A stretch of 64,000 nucleotides of DNA from Saccharopolyspora rhizosphaerae (GTDB taxonomy: Bacteria > Actinomycetota > Actinomycetes > Mycobacteriales > Pseudonocardiaceae), in NCBI RefSeq assembly GCF_003931915.1, contig NZ_RSAA01000035.1:682001-746000 (forward strand), in the 5' to 3' direction. The notes beneath the pieces were generated by a model, which saw only the letters and a list, made by a program, of their open reading frames with translations, was not told the origin of the DNA and did not search any database. Position 1 is the first letter of the stretch. Each line of letters opens with the position of its first letter. A program made the position numbers and the translations under genes. Below, piece after piece: positions 2,758-14,163 of the stretch.

Positions 2758-3210
2758 GGACCCATGGTACCGGAACATCCGGTGCAGCAGCGTCTTTCAC
2801 TTGATCGACTTCGAATTTACCCATCATGACGCAATTTTTCGTCGAGAACACCCTGAGCGCACCAGCCGCCTGTCAGGGAGATCACCGCCGCGGGCCACGA
2901 GCCGGGTCCGCGCGGACGTGGCAGAGCAGCGAGCACTCGCCGTTCGGCGGCGGTTTCGGCCGCGTCCGCCCGACCGCCCCCGCGCCACCAGAGCTGCGGG
3001 TCGACTCGCGCCGGAGCCCTTCCGGGATCACGCAGCCGCGCCCCCGCCGGAGCAGGCGGAGCAGGCGCACGCGAACCACTCGCCTCCGCGCCCGGGCAGC
3101 CCACCGCGCCGTGCGCAGGAGGCGCGGAGGCCACCCCGGTGACACCCCCGCCCGATTTGCCGCTACCACGAACGAGCAAGATCATCCGGACCTTGTAACC
3201 TTGGGCACGC
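2758..3210. other. Intergenic region, no gene recognised
   Basis: About 450 bp between the methyltransferase and the tRNA. Open frames here are products of high GC and resemble nothing. It must contain the methyltransferase and tRNA promoters; I see no repeat or structured RNA. Confidence 0.5.
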
Positions 3211-3286
3211 GGGGCGTTAGCTCAACTGGCAGAGCAGCGGACTTTTAATCCGCGGGTTCAGGGTTCGATCCCCTGGCGCCCCACCA
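3211..3286 (+). tRNA. tRNA-Lys (anticodon TTT)
   Basis: Full cloverleaf: acceptor stem 3211-3217 with 3276-3282, D-arm 3220-3235, anticodon stem 3237-3241/3249-3253 with loop CTTTTAA (anticodon TTT at 3244-3246), T-arm 3259-3275, and an encoded CCA at 3284-3286. The 3' half from the anticodon loop onward is repeated exactly at 7609, so this gene is the attachment site of an integrated element. The element leaves the tRNA itself intact. Confidence 0.97.
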
Positions 3287-3315
3287 CAACCCCAGGTCAC
3301 AGGCCTGGGGTTCTT
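3247..3315 (+). repeat. 69-bp direct repeat, tRNA-side attachment site (attL)
   Basis: The 69 bases from the 3' side of the anticodon loop through the tRNA terminator recur without a mismatch at 7609-7677. The element side begins immediately after with a truncated integrase 140 bp away. A perfect repeat inside a tRNA 3' end beside an integrase is the hallmark of tyrosine-recombinase integration. Confidence 0.9.
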
Positions 3316-3320
3316 TTTTT
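3288..3320 (+). terminator. Intrinsic terminator of tRNA-Lys
   Basis: Stem AACCCCAGG (3288-3296) pairs with CCTGGGGTT (3304-3312), followed by TTCTTTTTTT. Classical hairpin plus U-tract, and part of the 69-bp repeat, though the downstream T-run is missing in the second copy. Confidence 0.85.
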
Positions 3321-3456
3321 CAAGATCGCGTCCGACCTAAACCCTTCCGAAACGGCTGCCGGTGTTCCCCAAGCACAGCGAGCCGAAGGGCAGCGGCCGG
3401 CATAACGACGACCGGCCCCCAGTATGAGAGGAGGCCGGTCGTTGGCGAGTCCCGCG

Positions 3457-3672
3457 CTAGATGACGTGCTCCATGGCATCCGCAGCCTCCCGACTGACTG
3501 CCTTGCGGCCCATGTACACGTCCTGCGTCATCGACGGGCGCGAGTGGCCGAGCTGATCAGCGATCAGGCGCGGAGTGAGCCCCGCCTCATCCAGGATCGT
3601 CGCGGCCGTCTTCCGGAACACATGCGATGTCACCCAGGCGAAGCCCTCACCACCTCGGGTCTCGCGAAGCAC
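3457..3672 (-). pseudogene. Tyrosine integrase, C-terminal fragment
   Basis: Seventy-one codons encode the C-terminal catalytic end of a phage/ICE tyrosine recombinase. The box II residues are all readable: HVFR (His, Arg), LGH (second His) and the nucleophile Tyr in TQDVYMG. The N-terminal DNA-binding domain and the box I arginine are absent, so the remnant cannot catalyse integration. It points toward the tRNA attachment site, the usual place for int in actinomycete integrative elements. Upstream homology ends near 3670, exactly where the tail of a plus-strand regulator begins. Confidence 0.85.
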
Positions 3673-3938
3673 TCGACGTGTACCTAGCCGTACCGCTGTT
3701 CAAGCTCTACCTGATCAACCAGTTCGAAGCCTTCTTCGGCTACTACCCGGTCCGCGAGCACGTTGTGAACCTCGAAGGCGCCGATACACCGATTTGGGAC
3801 CTGATGGGCAAGGACGCCACCCTGTTCCACCATGCCGCCGAGCCTGATGAGGAGTCTCTGAGCTCGCTGTTCATCCAGCAGTCCCAGATGTGGTTCGACA
3901 GCATCTGGAACACGGTTGCGCGGGAGGTTCCTCGATGA
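3671..3938 (+). pseudogene. Regulator C-terminal fragment (XRE/DUF-type), 5' deleted
   Basis: A frame of about 88 codons begins inside the deletion junction near 3670 and reads LDVYLAVPLFKLYLINQ through to TGA 3938. It looks like the C-terminal ligand or response domain of helix-turn-helix regulators found in actinomycete integrative elements; no helix-turn-helix remains. The ATG of the HAD gene overlaps its stop (ATGA at 3935-3938), so both were one operon before decay. The family name is an inference from memory of similar layouts. Confidence 0.55.
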
Positions 3939-4607
3939 CCCAGGCAGCCGAAATCCTCGACCACAGCAAGGTTGTGCTGCTGGGACTTCGACGGACCGGC
4001 ATGCGCCGTGTTCGGCGGCCTGAGCAACCACGATGTTGCCGTCGAGCTCCGCGCGCTCTTCCCGGAGGCTCTGCCGGAAGGCATCGAGCAGAGCCCTGAC
4101 CCGTTCGATGTTCTTGAGCACGCCACCCAGTTTGGAGATCTGGCCACCCGGGTCGAGGAACGCCTGGGTCAGCTCGAAATTCGTGCCGTCGCAGCTGCCC
4201 CCGCCACCCCTGGGACAACCGATGTCCTCGACGTTCTCCAACGCCGGGGTGTATCGGTTGTCATCGTCTCCAACAACTCAGAGGCAGCAGTCCGCGCGTA
4301 CCTCAATACCACCAGTCTTGAAGCACTAGTCCAAGGCGTGTCCGCGCGGACAAGTGGCGAGCTCGCCGAGCTGAAACCGTCACCCTTCCTCCTGCAGCAG
4401 GCCATCACCAACATCAAGGCTGACGCAGCTGAATGCGTGATGATCGGCGACTCGACGACAGACATCCAAGCTGCGCACGCCGCAGGCACAGCCGTCATCG
4501 CCTATGTCAACAAACCGGGCAAGCGTGATCGGTTCACCCCGCACAAGCCGTCAGCGATCATCGAGCACATGACCGACCTTCTCGGGGACGAATCTGCACT
4601 GACATGA
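3935..4607 (+). pseudogene. HAD-superfamily hydrolase with frameshift
   Basis: A HAD phosphatase broken by one extra G. Reading from ATG 3935 gives MTQAAEILDHSKVVLL and then loses frame at 3982-3984. The other frame continues as DFDGPACAVFGG, the motif I loop with nucleophile and general-acid aspartates, then IVSNNSEA (motif II), a lysine in ELKPSP (motif III) and GDSTTDIQAA (motif IV). A single-base indel therefore separates the start from an otherwise complete enzyme of about 224 residues. A sequencing error is possible, but decay fits the surrounding relics. A second fragment of the same family lies at 7729-7841. Confidence 0.8.
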
Positions 4608-5359
4608 GTCAGCGGTCCGACCGGCGCATCTTCGCTCAGCTGCTCTGTGAGGTCATATACGTCCCACCGCTGGTGGCTCGCAGGTGTCACGAGCACAACT
4701 GCATGGCCTGGCACATCAACACACGCACCTGCCGACCTTGCTCCAGCGACTAGTGCTACAGCTGCCGGATGGCCGTTGACCTGCGGTATTGGCGTGCGTG
4801 TTTGAACTTTCTCCACTTCATCAAGGGCGGCCCCTGCGGGGCCGCCTGCCGCTGCATGCGAGCCAGGGTCGGAGCTGCCGACCTTCTTGTATGCGAGCCC
4901 GGTCAAGCGACCGCTAACCGTCCGGGCATGCGGCTCGCTGCGCTCGCCGGTCCCGGCGGCCACGGCCGCGACCGGGCGCAGGCGGAAAGGTCGGCAGCCG
5001 CACCCTGGCGCCAGCGGTGGCAGGCGCCCCCGCAGGACACGCCGGAAGCAGAGGAACTCAACCGCGGTTCTCTCACGACGGACCGGCACTCAGCTGGGCA
5101 GACTCAAGTTGCAGTGCTGGGCACGCTGCCAATGTGGTCGCCTCACCCCTCAAACAGGCGCGAAATGTGCCAGCAAGAAGGTGTGCACCCGCGTGTGGTC
5201 ACCAAACGAAGCCCTGACCCCTTCCGTCTGCCATGGCGCTGCATCGCTTCAAGCAAGCACTGCGCCGAGTCACGACCCGTCGAGCGAAGATGAAGCCGCC
5301 TCATGACGCTTTAGTCGAACCCAGGTTCGTAGTGGAATTGGGGAACGACGACTATCTGC
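4608..5359. other. Element interior without recognised gene
   Basis: About 750 bp. A 9-bp stem with a 3-base loop occurs at 4826-4846 (GGCGGCCCC/GGGGCCGCC) without a T-run. Overlapping frames in all phases have no recognisable protein features. A Cys-rich reading at 5110-5190 looked briefly like a zinc ribbon but is not convincing. Confidence 0.5.
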
Positions 5360-6472
5360 TCACCGCGCGCTCGGGCCGAACTGCGTTGCCAGGAAAGCGG
5401 TCTGGTCTCGTACCGCGCGCTCAAACAGATCGCCCACGTAGATGTCGAAGTGGTCGCCCTCGTAGCGGCTGACCTGGACGTGGTCCTGTTTGGCAGCGAG
5501 TCGGGTTGTGGTGTCGGCGGGCGCGGCCCTGTCGTCCTCGCACACGCACAGCAGGGTGGGTGCGGTGATTTTCGGCAGGTCCTTTCCCGGCCTATACAGC
5601 GGTAGCCGCAGCGCCAACCGAGCCGCGACCCCGTTCGCGCTGTCGGCCCCGCCGTCGGCCCCTTTGAGAACGCCCCAGAGGGTGTCGCGACCGACCCCTG
5701 TCTCGGCAGGGCGGAAGGAATCGTCACCGGTCTCGATGTTTCCTGACAGATCCCTCGCCAGCGACGACATCTTGGTCATGGCCGCGGAAGTCCTGGGGGA
5801 GAGCCGGGTTCCCGGGGGCAGCAGCCGCGAAGCGGCGGCGATCGCGGTGGGGGAGACGAGGTAGGCGGGCATCCACCACACGCCCACCACCGGAGCGAGC
5901 ACCGGCTTCGCGCCGAACAAGGACCCCACGGCGTCGAGCACCCCGGCAGCGACGAGCCACAGCATGCTCAACGGCGAGCTGCGGAGGCGTGAGAACAGCG
6001 ATGCCGGACCGTCGGTGAACGGGCACTGAGCCACCACGGCGGCCAGCTGATGGTCTTCACTCGCAATCCGCAGCGCGTGTCCCCCGCCGAACGAGGTTCC
6101 CCACACCGCGATCCGATCGGTGTCGACCCCTGGCAGCGACCGACCGTAGGCCAGTGCAGCTCGCCAATCGTCAAGCTGCTCATCAATGTCGAGCAGCTGT
6201 CGAGGCGAGCCCTCACTGGCCCCCAGGTACCGGTAGTCGAACACCAGCACCATCCATCCCTGCTCGGCGAACCGCTCCGCGAACGCGTCCAGCCGCCACT
6301 CCCGCACCGCACCGAGGCCGTGTGCCATGACCACCAGCGGTCGCAACCCATTCACTTCGGCGGGGGCGTATAGCCACGCCGCGCACTGCAGGCCACCCGA
6401 CTCGAACCAGACGTCGCGCCGCACGGTGGCGGCGCCCGGGTTCTGCCCTGATGTCGTCTCCATCGCCATCAT
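5360..6472 (-). CDS. Alpha/beta hydrolase (element cargo)
   Basis: A 370-residue alpha/beta hydrolase of the dienelactone-hydrolase/S9-like type. It has the oxyanion HG at 51-52, nucleophile elbow GTSFGGG (Ser127), an acidic CEDD segment near 320 and the catalytic His in GDHFDIY near 345. The insert between the elbow and the C-terminal lobe holds a hydrophobic stretch and forms a lid. It is divergent from a TetR gene, and a 19-bp inverted repeat (6487-6505) stands 15 bp upstream of its start, so it is very likely the TetR target. Substrate unknown; an ester, lactone or xenobiotic would fit. ATG 6463 is an alternative start. Confidence 0.85.
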   Translation of the reverse strand: MMAMETTSGQNPGAATVRRDVWFESGGLQCAAWLYAPAEVNGLRPLVVMAHGLGAVREWRLDAFAERFAEQGWMVLVFDYRYLGASEGSPRQLLDIDEQLDDWRAALAYGRSLPGVDTDRIAVWGTSFGGGHALRIASEDHQLAAVVAQCPFTDGPASLFSRLRSSPLSMLWLVAAGVLDAVGSLFGAKPVLAPVVGVWWMPAYLVSPTAIAAASRLLPPGTRLSPRTSAAMTKMSSLARDLSGNIETGDDSFRPAETGVGRDTLWGVLKGADGGADSANGVAARLALRLPLYRPGKDLPKITAPTLLCVCEDDRAAPADTTTRLAAKQDHVQVSRYEGDHFDIYVGDLFERAVRDQTAFLATQFGPSAR

Positions 6473-6486
6473 CAGCCCCTATCGCC

Positions 6487-6505
6487 TCTTGATTACCATT
6501 CAAGA
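6487..6505. promoter_or_regulatory. TetR operator copy 1
   Basis: TCTTGA-N7-TCAAGA, a perfect 6-bp inverted repeat directly upstream of the hydrolase start. Matches the copy at 6531 in 17 of 19 positions when that copy is read in reverse. Confidence 0.75.
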
Positions 6506-6530
6506 TCGGTTCGGAGGGAGGCTACGGCCC

Positions 6531-6549
6531 TCTTGAATGGCAGTCAAGA
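6531..6549. promoter_or_regulatory. TetR operator copy 2
   Basis: TCTTGA-N7-TCAAGA again, 44 bp from copy 1 (start to start), between the divergent hydrolase and TetR genes. Confidence 0.75.
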
Positions 6550-6672
6550 AGTGGCCCACTCGCTACCTACGCCCGGTGTTGGCGACAGCAGGGTGCGGAC
6601 ATGGAAGGTGCGACGTGGAACCGGCGGGCCCCTCCCGCCCTGCCGCGAAGCGGAGAAGCCATGTTGGCGTGT

Positions 6673-6691
6673 TCTTGAATACCTGCCAAGA
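6673..6691. promoter_or_regulatory. TetR operator copy 3
   Basis: TCTTGA-N7-CCAAGA, one mismatch in the right arm, ending 7 bp before the TetR start codon; fits autorepression. Confidence 0.7.
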
Positions 6692-6698
6692 TGCCGGT

Positions 6699-7265
6699 AT
6701 GGCTCGCAACCGCCGCCCGGTCCCCAAGGAGCAGAGACGCGACGAGCTGCTGGCCGCTGCAGCGAAACTGCTCGTGCTCGACGGCTACGAGGCCACCTCA
6801 ATGAGTCGACTCGCCCAACACGCCGGTGTCGCCCCGAACACGCTCTACTGGTACTTCCGCGACAAGGACGAACTGCTCGTAGCCGTCGCCGACCGGTATT
6901 TCCAAGCGCTGTTGCATGAGCACGCCTCGCTAGCAGACCGGCCACTCGCCGAGCAGTTCCTCTGGTTGATCGAGAGGCTCCGGCCAGTCAAGCACCTGGT
7001 CGCCACGGTCCATAGCCGCGTCACCGTCTCGGAGACCGTCCGCAAGTGGCATACCGGCTTCCATCAGAGCTTCGAGAACCTCTTCGAGCGACAACTCGCC
7101 GCCCCCCTAGCCGCCGAGCACCGCACCGCGGAATTCGCTGCCGCGACCTTCACCCTCGAAGGCGCGATCACCCACAGCCTCGACGAGGCCACCACGGAAC
7201 AACTCTGCGAGATCACTGCCGATCGCCTGCGCCGTGCAGCCGAAGCGAAGCTGAACGCGACCTGA
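6699..7265 (+). CDS. TetR-family transcriptional regulator
   Basis: A 188-residue TetR repressor. The N-terminal helix-turn-helix reads LLVLDGYEATSMSRLAQHAG then VAPNTLYWYFRDKDELL at about 24-60; the rest is the helical ligand-binding and dimer domain. I chose ATG 6699 because it gives the normal short arm before the DNA-binding domain; the longer open frame from 6537 runs through operators 2 and 3. Divergent from the alpha/beta hydrolase, with three copies of one inverted repeat in between, so it most likely controls both that gene and itself. Confidence 0.9.
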   Translation: MARNRRPVPKEQRRDELLAAAAKLLVLDGYEATSMSRLAQHAGVAPNTLYWYFRDKDELLVAVADRYFQALLHEHASLADRPLAEQFLWLIERLRPVKHLVATVHSRVTVSETVRKWHTGFHQSFENLFERQLAAPLAAEHRTAEFAAATFTLEGAITHSLDEATTEQLCEITADRLRRAAEAKLNAT

Positions 7266-7297
7266 GAAGACGCCAGGGTTCAGTCGAGGGCCAGGCG

Positions 7298-7447
7298 TGT
7301 CGCGACATCTCAGCCACCAGCCCCGGCATCCTGCTTGCTTGGCACCAGGCCTACGTCGGAGACTGGTGGGCACTTGCCACGTTCGAACCGAGGAACCGCT
7401 CGGGCGATCCCGGCTCGATGGTCACTCAACTGGTCCCGCGAAGGCCG
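7298..7447 (+). pseudogene. Relic of a 107-residue conserved protein
   Basis: A 50-codon stretch reads ILLAWHQAYVGDWWALATFE and ends in MVTQLVP. It is a clear homologue of the intact protein encoded at 12319-12642, which has VLVAWHQTSVGDWWALATFE and VVTQLVP. The N-terminal half is gone and no start fits. It sits at the distal end of the integrated element, near its right attachment repeat. Confidence 0.75.
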
Positions 7448-7608
7448 TCAACCTGCGATAGACGGCATCGTGCACCGTGCTTTTCCCTTCCAGAACAACC
7501 GGAAATGACCGGCACCGACCGTCCTGATCGGTCATAGGTCGAACTCGAAAACCTTGATACTGCAAGGCTTTCGCCAACATCAGGAGATAACAAGACACGT
7601 CGCCTCAG

Positions 7609-7677
7609 AATCCGCGGGTTCAGGGTTCGATCCCCTGGCGCCCCACCACAACCCCAGGTCACAGGCCTGGGGTTCTT
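7609..7677 (+). repeat. 69-bp direct repeat, distal attachment site (attR)
   Basis: Exact copy of 3247-3315: the 3' half of tRNA-Lys plus its terminator hairpin. The 5' half of a tRNA is absent, so this is not a gene. The T-run after the hairpin is not conserved (TTCTT then CAT), placing the repeat boundary precisely. Confidence 0.9.
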
Positions 7678-7728
7678 CATCGCCGAGCTCCGGTTGCCAC
7701 TTGATCACGCCGCGGAACACCGGTAGGG

Positions 7729-7841
7729 ATCGTCTCCAGCAACTCAGAGGCACTGTTCGCGCCTACCTTCACGCCAACGGCCTTGCAGTGCTCACCCAAG
7801 GCGTGCCCGCGAGGACTGGTGCAGAGCTCGCCGAGCTGTAA
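7729..7841 (+). pseudogene. Second HAD hydrolase relic, outside attR
   Basis: Reads IVSSNSEA, then after a one-base shift VRAYLHANGLAVLTQGVPAR and AELAEL before a stop. This parallels IVSNNSEA...VRAYLNTTSL...ALVQGVSARTSGELAEL in the HAD pseudogene at 3935-4607. The two differ too much to be a recent duplication. It lies beyond the right attachment repeat, so it descends from a different, probably older, insertion. Confidence 0.7.
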
Positions 7842-7950
7842 CTGACCACCTGCGGTCACAAGCGTCGCCTCTACGGCGCCCTCGCATGGCATGGCACGTC
7901 GAGCATGCTCACCTGTGCACACTCGCCTACCACCGACCCGGACAGCAGGA

Positions 7951-8403
7951 CTAGTAGTAGCCCTTGTCGCGGAACTGGTCCCGCAGTTCCTTGACCACTT
8001 CCCGGCGCTGCTCTTCGTCCGGCCACTGGCCGAGCTTGTAGGCGCGCAGTACCCGCCGCACGATGCTCGCGCCAGGCCGACTGGTGCAGCGCCCGCACAC
8101 CTGAGGAAAGACCCGCTTGGGGTTAGCCATCATGTCCAGCAGCTCAGCCGGGGTGAACACCCACGCGTCGCGACGCTCGTCGATGAACCGGCACGGTTCA
8201 TCGCGGTCGATCGGGTCGAACTCGGCGTGCACGGCCACGGTCAGGTTGCCGGGCTCGGAATGCTGCTGCAGCAGGAACCGTGGCGGGGTGGTGACCTGCC
8301 CACGCAGCCCCATCTGCCGCAGCTGGCGCTCCAGCACCTCACGCAGGTGGTTGATCTGCTGGTCGGAAATCTCGTCGACCACATCCACGCTGATTCGAGT
8401 CAT
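7951..8403 (-). CDS. Hypothetical protein with CxxC
   Basis: A 150-residue soluble protein that I do not recognise. It starts MTRISVDVVDEISDQQINHL, is rich in charged residues, carries VCGRC near 103 and ends in a basic/acidic helix with RDKGYY. TAGAGT stands 8 bp before the ATG, so a leaderless start is plausible. It lies between the element's outer relics and core genes and may itself be element-derived. The coding frame has the strong third-position GC expected of a real gene here. Confidence 0.6.
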   Translation of the reverse strand: MTRISVDVVDEISDQQINHLREVLERQLRQMGLRGQVTTPPRFLLQQHSEPGNLTVAVHAEFDPIDRDEPCRFIDERRDAWVFTPAELLDMMANPKRVFPQVCGRCTSRPGASIVRRVLRAYKLGQWPDEEQRREVVKELRDQFRDKGYY

Positions 8404-8551
8404 GGCGCCGGACTCTAGTCCGAACGGGTGAATGATCGGCAGGCCTGCGGTGCGAACCGGCCACTCCCAAGCTCAAGCCCGGGTTCTTCTTCGGCCTCCG
8501 CAGCGGGCTGAGCACCTCGCCTCCCGCACTGACCACGTCGCATGGTCGAGC

Positions 8552-9061
8552 TCAGTTCACCGAGCGGCCGACGAAGACGACGTCCTGGCCGAGACCGTCC
8601 AGGTCGGCCACGGCCGGGAGTCGTCCCCACTCTTCGAACCCGTGGGAGCGGAACAGCCGGATGCTGCGCTCGTTGCTGGCGAAGATCGTGGTGGCCAGAG
8701 TTCGCAGCCCCAGCTTCGGGGCGTGGGAGATCGCCTCGCGAAGGAGGTGAGCACGTTGCCCGCGGCCGCGGTGGTCAGGATGGAGGTAGAGCGCGAGGTC
8801 CGCGGTCACGTCGTAGCCGCGACGTCCGTTGAGGAAGGGCTCGAAGGACAGGTAGCCCGTGACGGTGTGCGGACGGCCGGGTTCGTGACCGACCCAGGTG
8901 GGACGGCTCCCCGGATCAGCCGCTTCGAACCACGCGATCCTGGAATCGACGGTCACCGGCTCCAGGTCGCACGTAGCGGACCTGCTCGGGATCGCGGAGT
9001 TGTCGATGTCGACGATCGCCTGCAGATCGTCGCGGGTGGCGAGCCTGTGGCAGTACGTCAC
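8552..9061 (-). CDS. GNAT-family N-acetyltransferase
   Basis: A 169-residue acetyltransferase resembling the phosphinothricin acetyltransferase group. The acetyl-CoA-binding motif A is LYLHPDHRGRGQRAHLL, followed by ATTIFASNERSIRLFRSHGFEEWG, the typical motif B. The Q-R in place of the usual G-x loop residues is a mild variation. Start GTG 9061 has GGGAGA just upstream. Stands alone; substrate cannot be read from sequence. Confidence 0.85.
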   Translation of the reverse strand: MTYCHRLATRDDLQAIVDIDNSAIPSRSATCDLEPVTVDSRIAWFEAADPGSRPTWVGHEPGRPHTVTGYLSFEPFLNGRRGYDVTADLALYLHPDHRGRGQRAHLLREAISHAPKLGLRTLATTIFASNERSIRLFRSHGFEEWGRLPAVADLDGLGQDVVFVGRSVN

Positions 9062-9404
9062 GGAGTCTCCCTGCGGCCGTCGGAGGGGTAGAGCGGCGGA
9101 GTTGAGCGCTACGTGCGGGCGGACCTCACCACTGCGGGCCGCTCCGACGACTAGATCAGTCCGGACGCATCCCGATCAACGTCGTCCTGCAGGGCCTGCG
9201 CTTCTCCATCCTGAAGCCTCCACCCCCAAGCACAGGGGCTCCTCGAACGGACTTGTCTCCTCCCGGCCGCCTCCCGTGCAGCCGAAACCTCGCGGTGAGT
9301 CGACCTGCGGCGTCGCGCCGTTGACGGGCGTCCGGTCTGCCCCCGACGCGCGGCACCCAGCACGTGCGCTGCTGGTCAGCCGGGCCGGCGCTAGCGTCGG
9401 GTTC
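9062..9404. other. Intergenic region, no gene recognised
   Basis: About 340 bp between divergent genes. Holds the promoters of the acetyltransferase (minus) and the kinase (plus; TAGCGT at 9392-9397). Nothing else is recognisable. Confidence 0.5.
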
Positions 9405-9938
9405 GTGATCGTGTGGCTCAACGGTGCCCATGGCGTGGGCAAGACGACGACCGGCGCGCTGCTTCAGGAGCTGCTCGCGAATGCTCGCGTGCTGGACGCC
9501 GAGAAGGTGGGCGAGACGCTCATGGACATCACGCCCGGCCTGCCCTGGACGGGGAACTTCCAGGACTGGCCGCCGTGGCGGCCGCTGGTCGTCGAAACCG
9601 CGCGCCACGTCCTCGATCACACCGGTGGCGCCCTCGTGATGCCGATGACCGTGCTGGTCGAGGAGTACTGGCGCGAGGTCTCCTCGGGGCTCGCCCACCA
9701 CGGCATTCCCGTACGGCACTTCGTGCTGCACGCCGACCTCGACACGCTCCGCGGGCGCATCGAGGGAGACACCGCCCTGGGGCCCTCCTCGTTCCGGCCG
9801 CGCCACCTCGAGCCCTACGCCGACGCGGCGCGCGCCTGGCTCCACCGGGAGGCTGAGGTCGTCGACACCACGCTTCTGACGCCCGCCGAGGTCGCAGCGC
9901 GTATCGCGGAGGTCGTGCGGTGCTGGGAACCGCTGTAG
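9405..9938 (+). CDS. P-loop kinase-like NTPase
   Basis: A 177-residue ATP-binding protein with Walker A GAHGVGKTT at 7-15 preceded by the hydrophobic VIVWLN strand. It continues like small-molecule kinases (AAA_33/chloramphenicol phosphotransferase-like), with a Trp-rich substrate segment and a lid with RGRIEGD. Start GTG 9405 sits 7 nt after TAGCGT, a leaderless layout; upstream in-frame sequence shows no homology. A convergent terminator (9966-9992) follows. The substrate is unknown. Confidence 0.75.
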   Translation: MIVWLNGAHGVGKTTTGALLQELLANARVLDAEKVGETLMDITPGLPWTGNFQDWPPWRPLVVETARHVLDHTGGALVMPMTVLVEEYWREVSSGLAHHGIPVRHFVLHADLDTLRGRIEGDTALGPSSFRPRHLEPYADAARAWLHREAEVVDTTLLTPAEVAARIAEVVRCWEPL

Positions 9939-9965
9939 CGCAACGGGTTCGGTGGTCGCGAGAGC

Positions 9966-9992
9966 GGCCGCCGCTGTGCGGCAGCGGCGGCC
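9966..9992. terminator. Bidirectional hairpin
   Basis: GGCCGCCGCT (9966-9975) pairs with AGCGGCGGCC (9983-9992) between the convergent kinase and RibD-like genes. Confidence 0.6.
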
Positions 9993-10022
9993 CTCCTCGG
10001 TCCGGTCGTGCGAGGACCTCGG

Positions 10023-10757
10023 TCAGCTCTGCACGAGGTAGCGCATCATCATCGCCCCTTCTTCCGAGACGACCGACGCGAGTTCCAGTTCGAGGGTGTC
10101 GAAGAGCTCGCCCGTGGCGATCCGCGAGTGGGAACCGCTCACGAGCATCGGGGACACGGTCAGCCTGAGCTCGTCGACGAGGCCCGCGGCCAACAGCCCG
10201 CCGAACAGGTGGGGCCCACCCTCGCAGTCCACGTGACGCAGACCTCGTTCGGCGAGCGACTTGGTGGCCGTGGCGAGGTTCACGCTCCCCATTCCGGTGA
10301 TCAGCAGGTCCGCTCCGGCCTCCCGCCAGGCGTTGAGCTTCTCCCCTGGGGCCGTGGCGCAGGTGATCACGATGGTGGGTGTTTCGGCTTCGGTGATGAC
10401 CGGTGCGTCGGCTGGGAGCGAATCGCCGGACGTGACCACTGCCGTCGGGGGCACTTCGGACAGGCCGTGCCGGAGACGCCGCTCCCGGGTGGCGGTGTCC
10501 GGGTGCTTGCCGCGGAAGCCTTCGGCCATCGCTGTCGTGGCGCCGACCAGCATCACGTCCGCGAGGTCGCTGCCGAGCTTGAGCACCTCCTGGTCGGCGG
10601 GCGTGGAAAGCCCGCGCGCGGTGCCGTCCAACTCGACGGCTCCATCAGCGCTCGAGACGAAGTTGACGACGAGCCACCGCTCGTCAGCGGGGTAGGTGTA
10701 GAGGTCCTCCAACTGCCGGTCGTCGAGGGTCGCGGCGTCCGGCCAGAGCTGTCTCAT
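10023..10757 (-). CDS. RibD C-terminal/DHFR-like reductase (copy 1)
   Basis: A 244-residue NADPH-dependent reductase of the RibD C-terminal family, which shares the dihydrofolate reductase fold. It contains NFVSSADGAVEL, the LADVMLVGATTA substrate strand, CEGGPHLFGGLL (the GGP nucleotide loop) and LVDELRLTVSPML. There is no deaminase domain, so it resembles M. tuberculosis Rv2671, a stand-alone RibD-like enzyme reported to have some dihydrofolate reductase ability. A close paralogue lies at 13420-14163. Monocistronic. Confidence 0.85.
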   Translation of the reverse strand: MRQLWPDAATLDDRQLEDLYTYPADERWLVVNFVSSADGAVELDGTARGLSTPADQEVLKLGSDLADVMLVGATTAMAEGFRGKHPDTATRERRLRHGLSEVPPTAVVTSGDSLPADAPVITEAETPTIVITCATAPGEKLNAWREAGADLLITGMGSVNLATATKSLAERGLRHVDCEGGPHLFGGLLAAGLVDELRLTVSPMLVSGSHSRIATGELFDTLELELASVVSEEGAMMMRYLVQS

Positions 10758-10958
10758 CAGAACGCCCGTTCCGAGGCCGTCGAATGTCCAGTTCCGGGCG
10801 TGCAGGCGAACACCTCAACGGTCCACCGAGCACGCGTTGCAAGATCGAGGAGTGCCGTCATGCACTACCTCTACCCGGGTTCGGGCAGAACCATGCCCGT
10901 CCTGCCGAGATTTCTCGATTCACCTCTGAGCTGGGGAGATTCGTCACCTCAGGCGTGG

Positions 10959-11506
10959 TCACCCTCGGTGCCGGACTCGGTTCCCAGCGTCAACCGCGGC
11001 CGGTAGTCGGTAGACCACTTCGGGGCGGCCACCGCTGACCCGTTCCACGTGGCGGTCGAACCCGAGCCTCTCGGCCAGCCGCACGCCGGCCCGTTGTCCT
11101 CGTCCGTCACGATCAGCACGGGCTTGTCGGGGCGGTGACGACGAGCCCAGTCCAGCGCGGCCTGGGCCATCTCCCGCGCGTAGCCCTGGCCCCACGCCTG
11201 CGGCCAGAAGCGGTACGCGAGGTTCAGCACCGGCTCGCCGTCCTCCACCCACGGCCGCAGACCGCCGAAGCCGATCACGCCCTCCGCGCCGTGGAGCCTG
11301 ACCAACCAGTACCCGATGCCGTCCGGTTCCCAGCTCGTCATGAACCTGTCGAACGCCACGAGGGCCTGGTCAGGGGTCTTCCGGACGTGCGGGTCGAACG
11401 GATGGGTCTCCGCAGCGGTGGACAGGGCGACGAACGCGTCCACATCGGAGCGCCGCAAGGCGCGGAGGACCAGTCGACGGGTGCGCATCTCTTCCGGTTC
11501 CTGCAC
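10959..11506 (-). pseudogene. GNAT acetyltransferase with C-terminal frameshift
   Basis: An acetyltransferase of the RimJ type: TRRLVLRALRRSDVDAFVAL, then the acetyl-CoA motif RFWPQAWGQGYAREM. Near 11083-11088 one base appears missing. The open frame runs on as meaningless CGWPRGSG to 10949, while the neighbouring frame gives the expected VRLAERLGFDRHVERV and ends at 10959. The start is uncertain (GTG 11506 or ATG 11488). Either a recent inactivation or a sequencing error. Confidence 0.7.
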
Positions 11507-11592
11507 CCCGCACACGCTATTCCCCTTCGCCGTCCCGAGCACTCGAATTCCGGCCGAGCGCGGTTCGAGGAGCCAGCGGCGACCTGCGGTGA

Positions 11593-12147
11593 TCAACCGC
11601 TGGTGAGCACGCGCCGGACGAACGCCGACTTCTCAGCGGTGTACGCCTCACGTTCGTGCGGGTGCCGTGCGGCCGCCGCGACTTCAAGCCGGGCGTACTC
11701 GTCGGCCAGGGCGGGCGATGCGCGGAGCCGATCGCGGAAGGCGAGCTGCTGGTCCCACCGCGGTTCGTCCGGCTTCATGAGGTGCAGGTGGGCCAGGCGA
11801 TGTCGACCGGTCGGATCGGCGCGGACGACGAACCGGCGCCACGCACGCAGGTCGAGTTCTCGAGGCACGACGAACCAGGACGCGGCGGCCATCGCCGCCT
11901 GCGCAGCCGCGATCGCCGAGTCCGGGTCCTCAGCGCGGGCCTGCAGGTCGACGATGGGCTTGGCGAGGAGGCCGGGGACCGCGGTGGAGCCGATGTGGAG
12001 GACCGGCTCCGTCAGCGAGGCCCCGAGCAGAGCCCGCGCCTCCGCGGCGAAGGCATCCGCCCATCCCGGCCAGGCGGGGTCGGGGTCGGCGAGGTGGACG
12101 TCCTCGACGGCCCACGCAGGCGGCCTGGCGGCGTCGTCCGCTGACAC
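11593..12147 (-). CDS. GrpB/UPF0157 nucleotidyltransferase-fold protein
   Basis: A 184-residue GrpB family protein with the DPAWP start and the nucleotidyltransferase-like GSTAVPGLLAKPIVDLQ motif. It then has HLHLM and WDQQLAFRDRLRASP, both typical. Function is not established for bacterial GrpB domains (some fused to CoaE). GTG 12147 follows CAGACT by six bases, a leaderless geometry. Two-base spacing patterns with neighbours do not suggest an operon. Confidence 0.9.
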   Translation of the reverse strand: MSADDAARPPAWAVEDVHLADPDPAWPGWADAFAAEARALLGASLTEPVLHIGSTAVPGLLAKPIVDLQARAEDPDSAIAAAQAAMAAASWFVVPRELDLRAWRRFVVRADPTGRHRLAHLHLMKPDEPRWDQQLAFRDRLRASPALADEYARLEVAAAARHPHEREAYTAEKSAFVRRVLTSG

Positions 12148-12190
12148 GCCGCCAGTCTGACAGCGGTGAGCGGCCCGAACTGGCGATCAT

Positions 12191-12206
12191 TCGCACGGGT
12201 GTTCTA
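12191..12206. promoter_or_regulatory. SOS-box-like sequence
   Basis: TCGCACGGGTGTTCTA matches the actinobacterial LexA consensus TCGAAC-N4-GTTCGA at 10 of 12 defined positions. It lies 113 bp before the start of the small conserved gene at 12319 and 44 bp from GrpB. Confidence 0.4.
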
Positions 12207-12318
12207 ACCTTCGGGTGCTGGGCCGGAGGATGGGGAAGATCCGGGAGGTCGAGCACGGGTCGGTCGCTGCACCCCCTCTGGCCGACCCGACCACACTTCA
12301 CGTCAGAGCGGGCACCAG

Positions 12319-12642
12319 GTGGCGAACGACGGTGGCGATGGTTGGCAGGGCACGCGGCGACGACCGCACACCCCGCTCCCCATCTGGGTCCACCTGGCAC
12401 GAGCGCTGCCGCCGCAGCGCGGCATCGGCTACGGCCGCACGCCGCTGCGCGTGCGAGCCGGCGGCATCGACATCGCCGCGACCGTGCCGGGCGTCCTCGT
12501 CGCCTGGCACCAGACGTCCGTGGGCGACTGGTGGGCACTCGCGACGTTCGAGATGACCAACCGGACCGGCAAGCCCGCCGTCGTCGTGACCCAGCTGGTG
12601 CCCGCCGCGGCCGTCAGCCCCCGCCAGGGGGACCCGCGGTGA
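12319..12642 (+). CDS. Conserved small protein of unknown function
   Basis: A 107-residue protein with a basic N-terminus, PLPIWVHLARALPPQRG and a Trp-rich core AWHQTSVGDWWALATFEM, ending with a VVVTQLVPA strand. I do not know its function. A truncated homologue lies at 7298-7447 at the edge of the integrated element, so the family seems associated with mobile DNA. Start GTG 12319 is tentative: the ribosome site is weak and a second frame from ATG 12230 overlaps it. An SOS-like box stands upstream. Confidence 0.65.
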   Translation: MANDGGDGWQGTRRRPHTPLPIWVHLARALPPQRGIGYGRTPLRVRAGGIDIAATVPGVLVAWHQTSVGDWWALATFEMTNRTGKPAVVVTQLVPAAAVSPRQGDPR

Positions 12643-12737
12643 GCCCCCCCACGTGCGCCGACGGTCCACCGTGGCCTGACGGGTGGGCGGCTCCGGCAAC
12701 GGCCTTCACGCGGACGGACCGGACAGGCGAGCGCGGC

Positions 12738-13352
12738 TCATCGCCCTGCGCCGGCCGTGCGCTTCTCGATGCGGTTGACGGTGGCGTGGGCGGGGATCAG
12801 CAGGAGCCAGCACAGGGGCGTCCACGTGGGAGCGAACAGCGCCACCGGAGCGGACAGGGCGAAGACGACGATCGTGACCGCCGAGGGCGCGTACGCCGGG
12901 AAGGCGGCCCTGCCCGGCCGGAAGCTCCCGGTTCGGCGGGCGACGCCGACGATGACCAGCTGGAGCGCCGCGATCATCGCGACGTTCGCGGCGTAGCCGA
13001 GCACCGCGACCGGCTCGTCCCCGTAGTTGGCCAGCAGCGACGAGGGGAACGGCAGCAGCGCGACGAAGCCCAGCAGCACCACGTTCACCGCGGCGACCGG
13101 AGGCTCGGCGCGGTAGACGTCGGTGAACAGCTCGCGGTGGCCCATCCACAGCACGCCGATCACCAGGAACGCGATCGCGTAGCCGACGATGTCGGGCGTC
13201 AGCTCGAGCAGCGCGTCGTGCAGACCGCCGGTGCTCAGCCCTTCCGGCACGCGGATGTCGAGCGCGAGCAGGGTGGCCGCGATCGCGAAAACACCGTCGG
13301 ACAGGGCGAGCACCCGCCCGTCCTGCCCCACGTCGTCGTCCCCGGCCACCAC
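12738..13352 (-). CDS. TMEM175-type potassium channel (DUF1211)
   Basis: About 204 residues with six hydrophobic helices and the first-helix signature RVLALSDGVFAIAATLL, the prokaryotic TMEM175 hallmark (usually R-x-x-x-FSD; here Leu replaces Phe). Prokaryotic TMEM175 proteins form tetrameric K+ channels with selectivity set by hydrophobic residues of this helix, so a Phe-to-Leu change sits in an interesting place. GTG 13352 has CAGTCT six bases upstream; the longer TTG start at 13370 is possible. Confidence 0.85.
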   Translation of the reverse strand: MVAGDDDVGQDGRVLALSDGVFAIAATLLALDIRVPEGLSTGGLHDALLELTPDIVGYAIAFLVIGVLWMGHRELFTDVYRAEPPVAAVNVVLLGFVALLPFPSSLLANYGDEPVAVLGYAANVAMIAALQLVIVGVARRTGSFRPGRAAFPAYAPSAVTIVVFALSAPVALFAPTWTPLCWLLLIPAHATVNRIEKRTAGAGR

Positions 13353-13419
13353 ACCCCGAGACTGGCTCAAAACCGGCCCTCGGGCACGATGACCTTGGAA
13401 CCGCCGGGCCGAGGGCAGA

Positions 13420-14163
13420 TCAGCGCTGGACCAGGTACCGGATCATCAGCGTGTCGTCCTGGGCCAGCACCGAAGCGAGCTGGAGCCGCGCGGGTTCGAT
13501 GCCGGCGCCCTTCGCGATCCGGTCCGCCGCGCCGGAGACCAGCATCGGCGAGAGCGTCAGGCGCAGCTCGTCGACGAGACCTGCTTCGAGCAACGAGCCG
13601 AACAAGCGCGGTCCGCCGTCGCAGTGGATCCGCCGGAGTCCCCGCTGCGCCAAAGCCCCTGTCGCCGCGCGGAAGTCGACCTCCTCGTCCCCGGCGACCA
13701 GAACCTCGGCACCGGCGGCCGCCCACTGCTCCCGCAGGCTCGCAGGGGCCGCAGCGCAGGTGATCACGACCGTCGGCACGTGGACGTCGGTGAGCACCGG
13801 CGCGTCCGGAGGCAACGTCCGCCCGGTGGTGACGACGGCGATCCGGGGGACCGGGGCCAGGCCGTGCCGCTCGCGGAGCGCGGCGTGCTCCGCATCGGGG
13901 TCGACACCGCGGAACTCCTCGACGACCGCCGTGTTCGCCCCGACCAGCAGGACGTCAGCGAGCCGGCTGCCCAGCGGGTAGACCTCTCGGTCGGCGGCGT
14001 TGGACAGGCCGCGGGAGCGCCCGCCGAGCTCCACCGCGCCGTCCACGCTGCTCACGAAGTTCATCGCCAGCCACTGGGGCGGACCGTCGGGGTAGCCGTA
14101 GAGGCGTTCGAGTTCCGCGCGGTCGACGTCCCCCGCCTCGTCGGGCGGCCACAGCTTGAGCAT
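13420..14163 (-). CDS. RibD C-terminal/DHFR-like reductase (copy 2)
   Basis: A 247-residue paralogue of the protein at 10023-10757, with the same NFVSSVDGAVEL, LADVLLVGANTA, CDGGPRLFGSLL and LVDELRLTLSPML blocks and the same RYLVQ ending. Its ATG overlaps the stop of the upstream folP-like gene (TGATG at 14165-14161), so the two are translationally coupled. The pairing of a DHFR-fold reductase with a dihydropteroate-synthase-fold protein suggests a shared pterin or related pathway. That is inference; riboflavin-type chemistry is the alternative. Confidence 0.85.
   Translation of the reverse strand: MLKLWPPDEAGDVDRAELERLYGYPDGPPQWLAMNFVSSVDGAVELGGRSRGLSNAADREVYPLGSRLADVLLVGANTAVVEEFRGVDPDAEHAALRERHGLAPVPRIAVVTTGRTLPPDAPVLTDVHVPTVVITCAAAPASLREQWAAAGAEVLVAGDEEVDFRAATGALAQRGLRRIHCDGGPRLFGSLLEAGLVDELRLTLSPMLVSGAADRIAKGAGIEPARLQLASVLAQDDTLMIRYLVQR

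Follow-up and report, generated by a model that had tools for sequence, protein, structure and literature searches.

We analyzed a 64,000-nt stretch of the Saccharopolyspora rhizosphaerae genome (the window; contig NZ_RSAA01000035.1, positions 682,001 to 746,000; coordinates below are positions in the window unless a contig is named), taken from a 5.82-Mb assembly of 34 contigs (G000), in which two 69-nt direct repeats at a tRNA-Lys(TTT) gene bracket 4.3 kb. The bracketed DNA very probably derives from a pSAM2-type actinomycete integrative and conjugative element (AICE), gutted by deletion to a remnant of the cis-mobilizable element (CIME) kind, with an attachment (att) core identical at both ends through a recent event or through gene conversion. 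The remnant is an ordinary genomic fossil of a known kind and one layer in a repeatedly invaded site. Relatives are denoted by handles, among them S. endophytica (G016), S. kobensis (G002), S. subtropica (G018), S. elongata (G017), and Saccharopolyspora sp. HNM0983 (G010). The features that carry this interpretation are as follows.

3211-3286, plus strand: tRNA-Lys(TTT), the integration target (ARAGORN; Rfam RF00005 gives 3211-3283).
3247-3315, plus strand: attL, the 3' part of the tRNA and the terminator hairpin (69/69 identical to 7609-7677).
3457-3672 (homology 3460-3684), minus strand: C-terminal stub of a tyrosine integrase, residues 311-385 of 385 (PF00589; 91% to the G016 integrase).
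3660-3935, plus strand: C-terminal fragment of an AICE GntR-type regulator, residues 190-281 of 281 (tblastn; GntR domain in the intact relative).
3677-3681, no strand: deletion junction, at which the parental sequences of the int side and the GntR side overlap by 5 bp (alignment to G016).
3890-4589, plus strand: HAD-type hydrolase gene, frame shifted near 3966-3988 (two tblastn frames; Pfam HAD_2 on the open reading frame 3972-4607).
4825-5036, no strand: long conserved hairpin, a candidate single-strand origin or other cis element (folding of 4777-5080; covariation).
7609-7677, plus strand: attR of the element, also the left att of the next remnant (repeat identity and the ends of relatives).

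Comparison of the window with itself showed that the two repeats, spaced by 4362, agree at 69 of 69 positions, and that the left copy begins immediately downstream of the anticodon and extends through the terminator hairpin. The first-pass annotation had described perfect 69-bp repeats in tRNA-Lys(TTT), and the repeat identity and the tRNA calls of ARAGORN and Rfam bear it out. For an exact 69-nt match to a tRNA end that adjoins an integrase stub, chance may be taken as ruled out.

An intact homologue at the same tRNA was found in S. endophytica, where a 13.1-kb element is followed by a second att. It encodes a 385-aa integrase, which is the full-length relative of the window's integrase fragment; a RepSA protein (PF20199, E 1.9e-154, below the cut-off of a narrower NCBIfam model); an FtsK_SpoIIIE protein (PF01580) with a weak TraB match; a GGDEF protein; a GntR regulator; a HAD hydrolase; a pentapeptide protein; and an SCO3933-like protein, which is below its model cut-off. 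Judged by this gene content, the S. endophytica element is a predicted pSAM2-type AICE. Four pieces of the window (3134-3681, 3677-4588, 4796-5150, and 7303-7703) are colinear with it, and about 8 kb between int and GntR (int-rep-tra) is absent from the window, comprising integrase residues 1-310 of 385, all of rep and tra, and GntR residues 1-189 of 281. What is left of the integrase is its last ~75 residues, which cover profile positions 126-166 of 172 of PF00589 (E 2.6e-8) and align by tblastn at 91% with residues 311-385 of the S. endophytica protein. In the first 16 kb of the window, tblastn at E up to 1e-5 detected neither RepSA, nor an FtsK/TraB-like protein, nor the other core genes of the S. 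endophytica element. The rest of the genome yielded no close integrase (four other matches at 30-49% identity, E 2.9e-14 or weaker), only two weak FtsK matches (31-32%), and no RepSA match in a search that had no positive control, though the same protein matched relatives by tblastn. Thus, the earlier statement that the integrase is broken and the mobility genes are gone holds.

We propose that a pSAM2-type AICE inserted into the 3' end of tRNA-Lys(TTT). Comparison with the S. endophytica element shows that a deletion of about 8 kb, with a 5-bp microhomology at its junction, removed rep and tra entirely, together with most of int and the N-terminal part of the GntR regulator. The HAD gene lost its frame, and attL, attR, the int stub, the hairpin, and an open hydrolase/TetR cargo pair remain. 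Such a remnant would have no excision of its own and would be movable only by the integrase of an incoming relative, which is what makes it a CIME. The 69-bp match comprises the att core plus the terminator, as in much of this family, and its identity would stem from a recent within-lineage event or from homogenization by gene conversion.

The tRNA-Lys site was then surveyed in 22 genomes of the genus over up to about 19.5 kb after the tRNA (contig ends shorten the view in G005, G014, G015, G017, G018, and G019), with the integrase detected by tblastn at E 1e-5. An integrase covering at least 356 of 385 residues was present in eight genomes (G002, G005, G007, G009, G010, G015, G016, and G018), a C-terminal stub no longer than 83 residues in six (G000, G006, G008, G013, G017, and G021), and none was detected at this threshold in the other eight (G001, G003, G004, G011, G012, G014, G019, and G020). 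A further att copy lay within the surveyed stretch in 11 of the 22, including weak copies in G006 and G014. G011 (L045) has a single att copy with locally continuous flanks. In G013 (L047) 2.26 kb with an att copy at either end separates flanks of the G011 type, the right flank being matched over ~480 bp with further differences beyond, and in G002 (L036) the same flanks (right flank ~960 bp) are parted by 14.6 kb carrying three att copies, a tandem insert whose distal part is 92% identical to the G013 insert. This series of empty, remnant-bearing, and tandemly occupied sites shows that the tRNA end serves as attB; it supplies the empty site looked for in relatives and, together with the intact homologue, supports the claim of an integrative element in tRNA-Lys. 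The complete element of G002 lies nearest the tRNA, as if it had been inserted last. G001 was considered as an empty site and rejected: beyond its single att copy, the next 5.7 kb do not correspond to the right flank of the window, and the empty-site argument therefore uses G011, G013, and G002.

These observations also bear on a reading in which the repeats are a mere duplication of the tRNA end, or the scar of a prophage or plasmid, unrelated to the integrase. The missing full-length integrase and the position of the repeats across the tRNA end would suit such a scar. However, the int stub stands in its normal place and orientation, the AICE pieces are in order, end sequences specific to an element type adjoin both repeats, and the empty/occupied series contradicts it, so that we give it almost no credence. 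Phage structural and lysis families were not among the Pfam hits of the 10 open reading frames scanned, a scan that included no search directed at phage genes.

The first-pass annotation had called the repeats an unusually long identity block, which did not survive comparison with 12 other multi-att loci. Homology runs through the terminator, over 64-71 aligned nt, at seven of them (G002, G007, G008, G009, G013, G016, and G017); it covers 53 nt in G010 and does not go past the tRNA 3' end in G006, G014, G028, and G034. The exact runs at these loci are 71 (G002), 63, 55, 53, 53, 52, 41, 40, 38, 36, 35, and 13 nt, so that 69 nt is the second longest of 13 and only G002 has a longer run. Between the tRNA-proximal and the next att copy, agreement is 71/71 in G002 (only 71 nt compared), 70/71 in G017, 69/72 in G009, 68/71 in G008, 68/73 in G016, 66/72 in G007, 65/72 in G013, and 63 of 73 columns in G010, and 46-55 of 73-77 columns agree in G006, G014, G034, and G028. 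The length of the repeat is ordinary, and its perfection lies at the upper end of the range without being unique. In published cases, an 81-bp attL is given in the portion of PMC3218068 on a Frankia AICE, and the portion of PMC9513070 on AICE direct repeats puts them at 'several nucleotides to hundreds'.

Both window copies carry the variant CCACCACAACCCC at the border of tRNA and terminator, and they are the only two to do so among the 40 att copies listed for the genus, of which a few (such as those of G003, G004, G014, and G019) are followed by unrelated DNA and could not show it. This private variant speaks against recent arrival by transfer from a different sampled species, whose att sequence would be its own, and in favour of either gene conversion or an event within the lineage. 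It is possible, though we doubt it, that the remnant is old throughout and that gene conversion with the essential tRNA gene has kept its att copies identical. The tRNA-Lys(TTT) genes of the genus have three acceptor-stem types (GGGGCG, GGGTCG, and GGGCCG), and 16 of 18 att copies that are not tRNA-proximal, four of them on other contigs, match the type of their own host, as conversion would produce; in addition, the G017 remnant also has near-identical copies (70/71), and the divergence of the HAD stretch equals that of the backbone, as detailed below. However, the matching of acceptor stems is equally explained by integration from donors of the same type, in which case the tRNA may limit which donors' elements integrate, and conversion is not general, with diverged copies in the remnants of G008 (68/71), G013 (65/72), G006 (46/74), and G014 (55/74).

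The outer side of the right repeat pointed to a second element, of which two pieces were recognized.

7678-7706, plus strand: left end of another element, one with an integrase of the other type (7609 to 7699-7705 matches type-2 left ends).
7707-7851, plus strand: HAD gene fragment of the second element (73-80% to 4241-4386; 7708-7837 is 80% to the HAD gene of G015).

Elements were labelled type 1 or type 2 according to whether their integrase has at least 70% or about 41% identity to that of S. endophytica. From 7609 to 7699-7705, the window has 89-90% identity to attL and the adjoining left end in the type-2 elements of G007, G009, and G015. On its inner side, the right repeat is flanked by a sequence that, by eye, looks like the type-1 ends of G016, G002, G010, and G017 and unlike those of type-2 elements. 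Since the inner flank is type-1-like and the outer flank is a type-2 left end, the right repeat is common to two elements. The interval 3247-7677 given by the first-pass annotation thus brackets one element correctly but stops at a repeat that belongs also to a second remnant, which reaches to at least 7851. From these flanks, the locus appears to be an accretion array at which insertion took place at least twice. The second remnant might have ended in a third att, but a search of 7700-13430 gave no support for one: the best local score was 20, no better than in 30 shuffles (mean 22, maximum 28).

Several observations weigh against our interpretation or strain it. The second element rests on only about 29 + 145 bp. 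No clean empty site was found among the closest relatives of the window itself. A GNAT gene (8552-9061) lies to the right of the element here and to the left of the tRNA in five relatives, which suggests another, unexplained rearrangement of the locus. Finally, the HAD stretch has 90% identity to G015, a level close to that of the left chromosome flank (88-90% for the most part, 81-82% in two stretches), so that an old, vertically kept element would fit too. Dating the insertion by divergence from G015 was accordingly dropped as non-deciding, element (90%) and most backbone (88-90%) being alike. The relatives with the GNAT gene just left of the tRNA are G001, G007, G009, G015 (truncated there), and G016; a gene of ~400 aa stands beside it in G001, G009, G015, and G016 and has no close match in the left 5 kb of the window. 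Two RibD-like reductase genes, 56% identical to each other (10023-10757 and 13426-14163), are located in the interval from the remnants to the conserved right backbone.

The least expected component of the remnant is the hairpin, which is in a non-coding stretch between the HAD and hydrolase genes. The stretch 4777-5080 folds better than 100 of 100 shuffles (z -6.1 as RNA, -4.6 as DNA). Across eight homologues, 16 of 74 pairs show double-sided changes, against a mean of 7.4 in shuffles, none of 500 reaching 16, with a structure derived from the same alignment that was used for this test; 95.7% of alignment cells pair, and slid controls give 1-6 double-changed pairs. Further pair types are not outstanding (24 vs 21.9 in shuffles, 108/500). 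Folding was likewise seen for a shorter class of the hairpin, in which double-sided changes affect 7 of 38 pairs. An 18-base core was found at 53 places, distributed over 28 of 297 family genomes (reversed control, 0); among the matches listed, it lies ~8-12 kb from an integrase in G203, G234, G174, G096, G001, and G021, and neither copy in G161 does so. No Rfam family matched the hairpin at E 1, nor did a plasmid, and a literature search, a thin basis that included a word search of PMC3218068, turned up no description of it. Its position and shape suggest a single-strand origin.

The hairpin raises the question of whether the shortened element is itself under selection: a non-autonomous unit that keeps its cis parts (flanked attL and attR, origin-like hairpin) and is moved by an incoming type-1 AICE, the identical repeats then reflecting recent movement. 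We consider this improbable. The identical att copies with their private variant would fit, and the hairpin is well formed, with 72 of 74 pairs in the window and 73 in the G008 remnant vs 71, 73, and 72 in G009, G015, and G016. Relative to the latter three, the window hairpin has changed mostly in unpaired columns (12/69) rather than in pairs (5/74); however, two of the five changed pairs are broken, and the constraint may predate decay. In addition, pairing is weaker in two elements with a full-length integrase (59 of 74 in G018 and 61 in G002; the Halosaccharopolyspora lacisalsi homologue is mostly gapped), so that good pairing is no mark of a remnant. The genome contains no close helper integrase, and a search of the other 21 genus genomes for the deletion junction yielded only matches to one side of it, so that the shortened form shows no sign of having spread. 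On the other side, the portion of PMC3218068 on the Frankia AICE Faln1739 reports that it is still excised with a truncated int, which means that a truncated integrase need not imply a lack of excision. The most specific form of this idea, a derivative resembling a miniature inverted-repeat transposable element, in which attL, attR, and the ~210-nt covarying hairpin suffice for related AICEs to move a cargo carrier, we hold to be slightly more improbable still; if it were true, the hairpin would be an undescribed single-strand origin or transfer locus of the AICE family. A search of the element for tandem repeats that might serve as TraB-binding sites gave only four short low-score arrays, and the idea was dropped.

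A deletion hotspot shared inside int was considered and dropped. The integrase stubs of G000, G006, G008, and G033 all start near residues 303-311, but exact breakpoints and partners differ between stubs, and partial integrase matches start anywhere from residue 129 to 359 among the matches listed for the family and the named genomes. A second C-terminal integrase remnant was observed in the same genome (contig C29, 99152-99304; L191; 49% to residues 333-384), adjoining a tRNA-Met(CAT) gene (C29, 99387-99463), and is probably a second decayed element. Separately, the elements of G015 (L049) and G016 (L050) have GntR regulators with 100% protein identity, whereas their integrases are 40% and their HAD proteins 73% identical, a contrast that points to module exchange between AICEs.

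The remainder of the element consists of the cargo pair and a gene fragment.

5360-6472, minus strand: alpha/beta hydrolase, 370 aa, open frame, cargo (open reading frame and profile searches; relatives in G001 and G009).
6687-7265, plus strand: TetR-family regulator, divergent from the hydrolase, cargo (PF00440 in the open reading frame 6537-7265; TetR-type models on 6687-7265).
7262-7438, plus strand: C-terminal remnant of a small protein (tblastn, 61% over residues 43-95 of 107).

The hydrolase has relatives at 74-75% elsewhere in G001 and G009, each with a TetR relative (47-48%) nearby. In G009 and G016, too, this small protein stands at the right end of the element, and a full copy lies in the window at 12319-12642.

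The window element shares with the S. endophytica AICE the tRNA, the integrase lineage, the order of the common pieces, and the kind of end sequences, and differs from it in that the latter has complete int, rep, and tra and no relative of the window hydrolase in its genome at E 1e-20. Site-specific insertion at a tRNA 3' end with direct repeats, as in AICEs, is present here, and the int, rep, and FtsK/TraB-like tra of a functional AICE are found in G016 but not in the window copy. An integrative and mobilizable element would have its own functional integrase and a relaxase or oriT; the integrase is truncated here. The passages of PMC5704250 on islands derived from integrative and conjugative elements define the CIME, and its accretion, by loss of integration and transfer genes, retention of attL and attR, and a tandem position with an element at the same site. 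Correspondingly, the window element retains its att sites (69/69), has an int stub of ~75 residues and no Rep or FtsK/TraB-like protein, and is colinear with the elements of G016 and G015; it differs in being apparently pSAM2-derived and in Saccharopolyspora, and its mobilization in cis is only putative. The same anatomy is described in the portion of PMC9513070 on decayed AICEs and accretion sites of Streptomyces, which likewise have different integrases at one tRNA, but in another genus and at tRNA-Arg or a glycosyltransferase gene rather than tRNA-Lys. Fean5518 and Fean5534 of Frankia are, in the part of PMC3218068 that treats them, AICEs in tandem in a tRNA-Lys gene; excision was seen there, whereas the window copy is without int, rep, and tra. 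The 81-bp attL cited above belongs to a different element of that paper. A literature search at the level of listings found no described Saccharopolyspora element at tRNA-Lys.

Taken together, the genus offers a series at one tRNA-Lys gene that runs from an empty site through an intact AICE and tandem arrays to stubs, and it would allow measurement of how fast and by which routes AICEs decay. The hairpin, common to intact and decayed copies, is a candidate cis site for replication or transfer in this AICE family.

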